Below are positions 6,214 through 62,821 of a stretch of 64,000 bases of DNA, one piece after another; the first letter of the stretch is position 1, and every line of letters begins with the position of its first letter. The DNA is taken from assembly GCF_001854185.1 (NCBI RefSeq), contig NZ_CP017603.1, positions 3,658,001 through 3,722,000 of the forward strand, written 5' to 3'. A program made the position numbers and the translations under genes. The DNA comes from Clostridium formicaceticum (GTDB lineage Bacteria; Bacillota; Clostridia; Peptostreptococcales; Natronincolaceae). A model generated the notes under the pieces. That model did not search any database. It was given only the letters and a program-made list of their open reading frames with translations, and was not told the DNA's origin.

Positions 6214-6310
6214 TGTAAAATCTCAGTCCTTTCACTTTGAATTACCCCTTTAATATTTAGATTATTGACTGAATGATTATTTTTATGCAGTAGTTATGCT
6301 ATGAAAAATA

Positions 6311-6438
6311 AAATTCGAAGATATAGTGCTTGATCTCCCACTTGCATAAATAGCTAATCCAAATCTTTGATTTGGTGTTAGTCACTTAGTTTGTTCACCT
6401 AGAAGTGGAGGTCTTAGCAATACACCGAAGGATAAAAA
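6311..6438 (+). repeat. dispersed structured intergenic repeat, copy A (near full length)
   Basis: About 120 bases that match the minus-strand copy at 62678-62811 at roughly 90% or better by eye. An outer stem is possible between GATCTCCCACTT (about 6332-6343) and AAGTGGAGGTC (about 6403-6413). A perfect inner hairpin CCAAATC-TTT-GATTTGG is at about 6359-6375. The conserved 3' end reads CTTAGCAATACACCGAAGGA. No ORF lies inside it. Confidence 0.85.
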
Positions 6439-8257: not shown

Positions 8258-8310
8258 AGACTAGTTTGTTCTTCTCATTTTAAAGAATATTGTAAACAGC
8301 TTATAAAATC

Positions 8311-8378
8311 CCAAAATGTAGTGCTTGATCTTCTCACTTTAAGAAGTGGGCATCTTAGCAATAACCGAAGGATAAAAA
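8311..8378 (+). repeat. dispersed intergenic repeat, copy B (centre deleted)
   Basis: Shares TGTAGTGCTTGATCT and the 3' block CTTAGCAATA-ACCGAAGGATAAAA with copies A and D but lacks the central 50 or so bases. The stem is kept in altered form: CTCACTT pairs with AAGTGGG directly across a short loop, with one G-T pair. Confidence 0.75.
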
Positions 8379-37093: not shown

Positions 37094-37129
37094 CTCATCA
37101 CATCCTTAAACTTTATAAAAAATTCATAG

Positions 37130-37232
37130 GCGTTAACTTAACCCTATTATTTTCAAAATTCCCTCGCGAACTATCATCCTGAGCATAGCGAAGGATCTTG
37201 GAATGATGACAAATTATGGTCTAAGTTAACGC
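37130..37232. repeat. inverted-repeat-bounded intergenic element (about 103 bp)
   Basis: Ends GCGTTAACTTA (37130-37140) and TAAGTTAACGC (37222-37232) are perfect 11-bp inverted repeats. Inside is a sequence like the short dispersed repeat CCTGAGCATAGCGAAGGATC that I recall from several Firmicute genomes, with a local ATCCT/AGGAT stem. Non-coding. Confidence 0.65.
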
Positions 37233-37257
37233 TAATGATAAAAAATTATAAAATAAG

Positions 37258-37297
37258 ACTTAATTCAGTGGGCGCCTTAGCAATACACCGAAGGAGC
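37258..37297 (+). repeat. dispersed intergenic repeat, copy C (3' end only)
   Basis: Keeps CTTAGCAATACACCGAAGGA, the right-hand part of copies A and D, and CAGTGGGCGC in place of the stem arm. The rest of the element is missing. Confidence 0.65.
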
Positions 37298-37349: not shown

Positions 37350-37369
37350 ATAATTAAGTCTCATTTTAT

Positions 37370-62677: not shown

Positions 62678-62811
62678 TTTTATCCTTCGGTGTATTTGCT
62701 AAGACGTCCACTTCTAGGTGAACAAACTAAGTGACTAACACCAAATCAAAGATTTGGGTGACCTACTTATGCAAGTAGGAGATCAAGCACTACATCCTCG
62801 AAGTAAATTCG
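62678..62811 (-). repeat. dispersed structured intergenic repeat, copy D (near full length)
   Basis: Reverse-strand copy of the 6311-6438 element. It shares CTTGATCTCC, CAAATCTTTGATTTGGTG and CACTTAGTTTGTTCACCTAG with copy A. Differences cluster in the loop between stems, and here CCTACTT can also pair with AAGTAGG as a local hairpin. It lies between the EAL gene and the PglX-like gene. Confidence 0.85.
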
Positions 62812-62821
62812 ACTATAATGA

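Follow-up and report, generated by a model that had tools for sequence, protein, structure and literature searches.

The repeat family that we describe here in Clostridium formicaceticum is a BOX-like composite in a new lineage. It is carried by the closed genome of 4,586,755 bp (strain DSM 92 was described with a genome of 4.59 Mb; PMC5477410), and the window analyzed in detail is the 64,000-nucleotide stretch at positions 3658001-3722000. Our favored reading, to which we give roughly even chances, is that the repeat is a non-autonomous, modular mobile element that targets ATAAA(A) and is moved in trans. Two constant end boxes would enclose one or two hairpins, and further hairpin modules, chiefly one that we call module C, would be inserted into those hairpins. 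The whole element would enter at ATAAA(A), which is then present at both ends, and a transposase supplied in trans, most likely of the HUH (Y1) type and acting on single-stranded hairpins, would move the composite. Module C itself would be a portable hairpin that lodges in the loops of folded sequences. A host function is unnecessary to explain this pattern, any effects on RNA stability or termination possibly being side effects.

Copy numbers in the genome were obtained by pattern searches, and 430 kb around the copies were gathered and then read for anatomy. The right-end box CTTAGCAATACACCGAAGGATA has 83 matches with up to three mismatches (none for the reversed control) and the left-end box ATAAAATGAGACTTAATTCA has 90 (one for the control), while blastn with the copy at 6311-6438 gives 41. 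This genome-wide search had been suggested in a first-pass annotation of the window, and the four copies listed there are indeed in place, far above chance. A full element starts with ATAAAATGAGACTTAATTCA and ends with GTCTTAGCAATACACCGAAGGATAAA, its end motifs being ATAAAATGAGACTT and CTTAGCAATACACCGAAGGATAAA. Its parts follow one another in the order left end (ATAAAAT...), hairpin 1 (AATTCAGGGGGAGTTTTTACTCCCCCTGAATT, then GTAGCCGAATTTA), hairpin 2 (GTAGTGCTTGATCTCCCACTT-nnnn-AAGTGGGnGTCTTAGCAATAC), and tail (ACCGAAGGATAAA).

The same two ends are found throughout, and end-to-end lengths are stepped (~50, 84, 126, 166, 181, 185-191, and 224-237 bp) because the internal modules differ. The ~50-bp form, present six or seven times in the genome, consists of the left and right boxes only; the 126-bp form has both hairpins; and the 181-bp form has, in addition, C within the hairpin 2 loop. 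A C-type module stands between the left box and hairpin 1 in the 185-191-bp form (for example, 187 bp), and the 224-237-bp form (for example, 226 bp) contains two nested C-type modules. Bare left-box palindromes of 60 nt occur at 4070652 and 2430485. Left- and right-flank variants vary separately among copies. Other genera have left and right boxes of the same sequence (L045 and L046), with C in tandem in the elements of A. multivorans (L045) and within hairpin 1, not hairpin 2, in those of another genome (G012). In Clostridium, seven loci (L288, L295, L324, L326, L354, L361, and L364) have C in a longer hairpin ending TAG(A/T)CATCGGATAAA, which resembles the right end of the element and hints at a wider composite family.

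Read against this anatomy, the window copies (Table 1) differ in part from their first description. The extent of 128 bp holds for the copy at 6311-6438, which has no hairpin 1, and complete copies elsewhere measure ~181 bp. The copy at 8311-8378 does lack its center, that is, module C, and it also lacks hairpin 1, with its left end ATAAAAT at 8303. The copy at 37258-37297, thought to keep only the 3' end, in fact has both ends, the left box starting at 37248. The inverted copy at 62678-62811 exists, but the 5' arm of its hairpin 1 is gone.

Table 1. Features of the repeat family in the window (window coordinates)
Feature	Position	Strand	Basis
Copy in which left end ATAAAATTCG adjoins hairpin 2; C and right end present, hairpin 1 absent	6308..6436	+	Empty site in sister species
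Left arm of hairpin 2 (ATAGTGCTTGATCTCCCACTT)	6323..6343	+	Compared with 33 copies
C module, TAAATAG...CACCTA	6347..6401	+	Covariance model match, 75.5 bits, E 2.4e-16
Hairpin 2 right arm	6403..6423	+	Compared with 33 copies
Right-end box CTTAGCAATACACCGAAGGATAA	6413..6436	+	83 copies, control 0
Copy with left end ATAAAAT, hairpin 2 lacking C, and right end with short box deletion	8303..8376	+	Sequence
Minimal 50-bp element: left-end and right-end box only	37248..37296	+	Sequence
Inverted left-end box, 122 bp from left end of minimal copy	37350..37369	-	Left-box pattern
Copy with remnant of the 3' arm of hairpin 1, C-bearing hairpin 2, and right end	62678..62814	-	blastn, sequence
C module of the 62678 copy	62715..62769	-	Covariance model match, 88.4 bits, E 1.5e-19

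The central module C is 54-56 nt long and has the core TAAGT-AGANNACC-(hairpin)-GTGNNANTC-ACTTA. In several versions an AGATGA/TCATCT helix is added, which crosses the first helix and would thereby form a pseudoknot. We model C as a covarying pseudoknot or imperfect hairpin. Across 17 sequences, 91% of the cells pair, and 22 double-change cells are found, compared with 7.8 +/- 2.1 after shuffling (0 of 500 shuffles as high) and at most 4 when the pairing is slid. Likewise, the covariation score of 0.246 compares with 0.114 for shuffled and at most 0.106 for slid versions. The usual pair exchanges are TAAGT/ACTTA, AAAGT/ACTTT, TAAGC/GCTTA, and AAAGC/GCTTT. The covariance analysis that had been proposed thus supports the central module, and the idea that paired changes reflect selection on structure stands for that part of the element. 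The paired changes first noted lie in the outer stems, and in hairpin 1 covariation is not above chance (1 double-change cell versus 2.0 in shuffled alignments). No consensus fold was obtained for hairpin 2. Any functional RNA fold of the outer stems is therefore hypothetical.

The intergenic placement noted for the window copies extends to 80 of the 82 classifiable copies in the genome; the remaining two overlap mechanical open reading frames, which we think are spurious. A covarying, conserved structure in intergenic copies is also what one would expect of a host regulatory RNA, such as a riboswitch, attenuator, or terminator, amplified because it is useful. We find this quite improbable, given that the copies show no orientation bias toward neighboring genes (-- 32, ++ 20, -+ 15, and +- 13 for 80 copies, compared with a background of 111, 55, 43, and 38), that relatives carry the family patchily and the sister species hardly at all, that its modules shuffle freely, and that C also occurs in unrelated RNA genes.

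That the element is mobile is suggested by empty sites together with its dispersal. In the sister species (G001), the sigG-sigE spacer lacks precisely the copy found at 6311-6438, and the site corresponding to the 50-bp copy at 3482435 is empty and already reads ATAAAA. These two cases answer the earlier suggestion to look for empty sites in relatives; clean ones were not found for the copies at 62678, 3724506, 2250787, 2253005, and 3486299, where the spacers have diverged. The family is nearly missing from the 4,201,318-bp genome of the sister species, and its presence among relatives is patchy. With copies in many genomes, these empty sites, and a covarying central module, the proposal of a mobile structured element has held up. 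No match to the element was found in phage, plasmid, and viral collections.

ATAAA(A) borders both ends of the element and is single in the empty site, and we read it as the target or as a short target duplication. The same doubling would fit a classical MITE, moved by a DDE transposase with duplication of ATAAA, which we nevertheless judge rather unlikely: terminal inverted repeats are absent, the left end being unrelated to the reverse complement of the right end; the left- and right-flank variants change independently; and the insertions of C into guide RNAs described below came without duplication (at most 1 nt). An HUH (Y1) mobilizer acting in trans is our best guess, at even chances or somewhat less. 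It is suggested by the lack of inverted repeats, by the lack of duplication at the guide-RNA insertions, and by hairpins that lie ~14-16 nt inward of ends of like sequence (ATAAA and GGATAAA). The hallmark of Y1 elements is guide pairing of an end with the foot of a hairpin, which for the element described here is hypothetical.

An autonomous partner was not found among the genome's Y1, TnpB, and RAYT loci, none of which shares the ends of the element. The first-pass suggestion of a non-autonomous IS200/IS605-type end is not supported by this comparison, and we rejected a link to the genome's own IS605/IS607 ends, none of which match. Near the Y1 and TnpB loci there are only unrelated dispersed copies (L061, L066, and L070), including one degenerate element copy ~300 bp 3' of the L061 gene. 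RAYT-like genes for Y1 transposases are located at four loci (L060-L063, at 4217662, 1985265, 4471956, and 219027); three of the genes are short or broken. A RAYT link was likewise rejected, because the RAYT-like genes are flanked by REP-like GGGGACG repeats and not by the element.

Module C is also found within the guide RNAs of RNA-guided nucleases. The C. formicaceticum genome has two IS607-type TnpB loci (L065 and L066), the guide RNA of which matches RAGATH-18, known as the guide RNA of IS607 TnpB (RF03064; PMC11061315). In these loci and in L238, C lies just 3' of the TnpB gene, where it borders the RAGATH-18 motif on its 5' side. The guide RNA of L066 reads GCCTTTGG-(55 nt C)-AGTGTTATATC, and relatives without C read GCCTTTGGAGTGTTATATC or GCCCTCGGAGTGTTATACC; the TnpB of L066 shares 91% identity with that of L263, from the sister species, and 87% with that of L264. 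C occupies the same position in L065 and L238, although the TnpBs are only 38% and 40% identical to that of L066 and L238 belongs to another family. In L065, a second C is inserted precisely into the first (GCAGA-(TAAG...TCTA)-GAACC). The C copies at the guide-RNA site are far more similar than their TnpBs, so they were acquired separately or exchanged between guide RNAs; either course implies movement.

The occurrence of C just 3' of three TnpB genes bears on the proposal that the repeats are IS200/IS605 or IS607 transposon ends, the central stem being a left-behind TnpB guide-RNA scaffold. The comparison of the stems to TnpB guide hairpins was apt insofar as C does occur in guide-RNA genes, but there it is an insertion in three members and not a normal part of the RAGATH-18 family, since all 30 other RAGATH-18 loci of the order, the two closest relatives included, lack it. 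Moreover, no TnpB relative lies within 400 nt of C in 80 named loci. No Rfam family matches the element or C (window at gathering score, element loci at E<=1), the dispersed copies tested thus containing no Rfam guide RNA; RAGATH-18 was matched by L065 and L066 only. We therefore give the scaffold proposal very little credence and consider it already refuted as stated.

A second type of guide RNA is affected, namely, the HEARO RNA of IscB (RF02033): the consensus of that family has no C, whereas one HEARO (L232, in NORP52) has two C modules, in antisense orientation, in a loop. These cases directly raise the question of whether TnpB or IscB guides still work with C inside, and whether its presence reflects decay, tolerance, or regulation of RNA-guided nucleases.

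A further class of sites is formed by tRNA genes. In a survey of 105 C cores in 90 loci, a tRNA gene starts 20-260 nt downstream of 22 cores. In 18 of these 22 cases, C is fused exactly after a copy of nt 1-20/21 of the same tRNA (nt 18 in two). The copy usually extends over 0-4 nt of additional upstream identity, mostly starting within 4 nt of the tRNA 5' end. Counted from the start of C, the intact tRNA comes 97-105 nt farther on; with tandem units, it comes ~120 nt later. The isotypes concerned are Thr, Gly, Lys, Leu, and Phe. Since tRNA genes make up well under 1% of a genome, C is strongly enriched at them, with the qualification that copies within Acetobacterium are not independent. Two ideas about the stretch between C and the tRNA were ruled out by shuffles, namely, that it repeats the 5' part of the tRNA in inverted form, as single folds had suggested, or that it is a decayed tRNA 3' part. 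A similar arrangement is found at the 5' part of a 5S rRNA gene (L242).

Such targets invite the idea of movement at the RNA level, in which the RNA of C would be joined into the loops of folded RNAs and a DNA copy would arise through a cellular reverse transcriptase and recombination. The sites are loops of stable RNAs. In tRNAs, C stands behind nt 20-21 and the mature 5' part is duplicated exactly (18 cases), the duplication mostly beginning within 4 nt of the tRNA 5' end; the TnpB guide RNA is entered at one fixed position; and the IscB guide RNA and the 5' part of 5S rRNA are also among the sites. We regard this mechanism as unlikely, because an intact tRNA stays downstream, which would require an extra step, the C copies in HEARO are antisense, many C copies lie in plain intergenic DNA, and no reverse transcriptase is linked to C. 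A broader proposal, which we put forward tentatively and hold to be possible but on the unlikely side, is that C, 45-56 nt in length and widespread in Clostridia, represents a previously undescribed kind of mobile unit that recognizes genes of folded RNAs and enters them at set positions in loops (tRNA nt 20-21 with a 20- to 21-nt 5' duplication; one nucleotide of the TnpB guide RNA), possibly at the RNA level or guided by structure, and that would change the guide RNA of a mobile nuclease.

Returning to the composite as a BOX-like mobile element, the distribution of its central module is wider than its own. Of 198 genomes of the order, 33 have C according to a covariance model, about nine of them in high copy number. 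Searching with an exact degenerate pattern yields at least 114 stretches, from genera including Acetobacterium, Clostridium, Sedimentibacter, Anaerovirgula, Alkaliphilus, Marinisporobacter, and Anaerosalibacter; the pattern has no match in viral contigs. Based on this wider distribution, we infer that C is probably the older of the two, a module mobile in its own right that was taken up by the composite in a hairpin loop. Tandem arrays of C-type units of ~53-60 nt occur in one genus (g19, family f6; L247, L250, L253, and L255) and in Sedimentibacter (L315). Three C copies in C. nigeriense (L294, L318, and L366) have identical flanks and possibly lie inside repeated coding sequence. Because C can be traced through more than 100 sequence contexts, some with near-identical empty sites, its mechanism is testable. 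C also has consequences for how guide RNAs and tRNA clusters are annotated in Clostridia.

To our knowledge, no mobilizer is firmly established for small modular repeats of the BOX type. The BOX elements of Streptococcus pneumoniae and S. suis consist of boxA, a variable boxB, and boxC, and are thought to be parasitic and mobilized in trans (PMC3049150). The composite shares with them constant ends, a central folding module that is present in varying number, down to zero, and so sets the length, and a high copy number, the likeness being one of organization. It differs in the class of its host and in that C, as modeled, is a covarying pseudoknot found also on its own in tRNA and nuclease guide-RNA genes of many genera. 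Rickettsia palindromic elements are small palindromes that insert within and between genes, and Y1 transposases are believed to move the GTAG/CGTC REPs (PMC3733652). Like these, our repeat is small, palindromic, and present in and between genes, but in particular RNA genes C has a fixed insertion position; unlike in REPs, the tag motif is not invariant, and the local RAYT genes carry other repeats. In the open-licence literature, we found no description of a portable pseudoknot with fixed-site insertions in tRNA or OMEGA guide-RNA genes, nor of the element family.

Two other kinds of repeat lie nearby. A CRISPR-like array with the repeat (CT)TTAATAGAACTACAGTAGAATGTAAAT and unrelated spacers stands just right of the window end (L010:5920-7201, ~3724920-3726200); L223 has such an array too, and the sister species carries it at the syntenic position. 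Another inverted-repeat family, GCGTTAACTTAA...GCGAAGGATCTT...TTAACGCTAATGA, occupies 37125-37238 of the window and recurs in L215, and two of its copies are found in the spoIIGA-ftsZ spacer of the sister species, on either side of a gene of ~1.1 kb.
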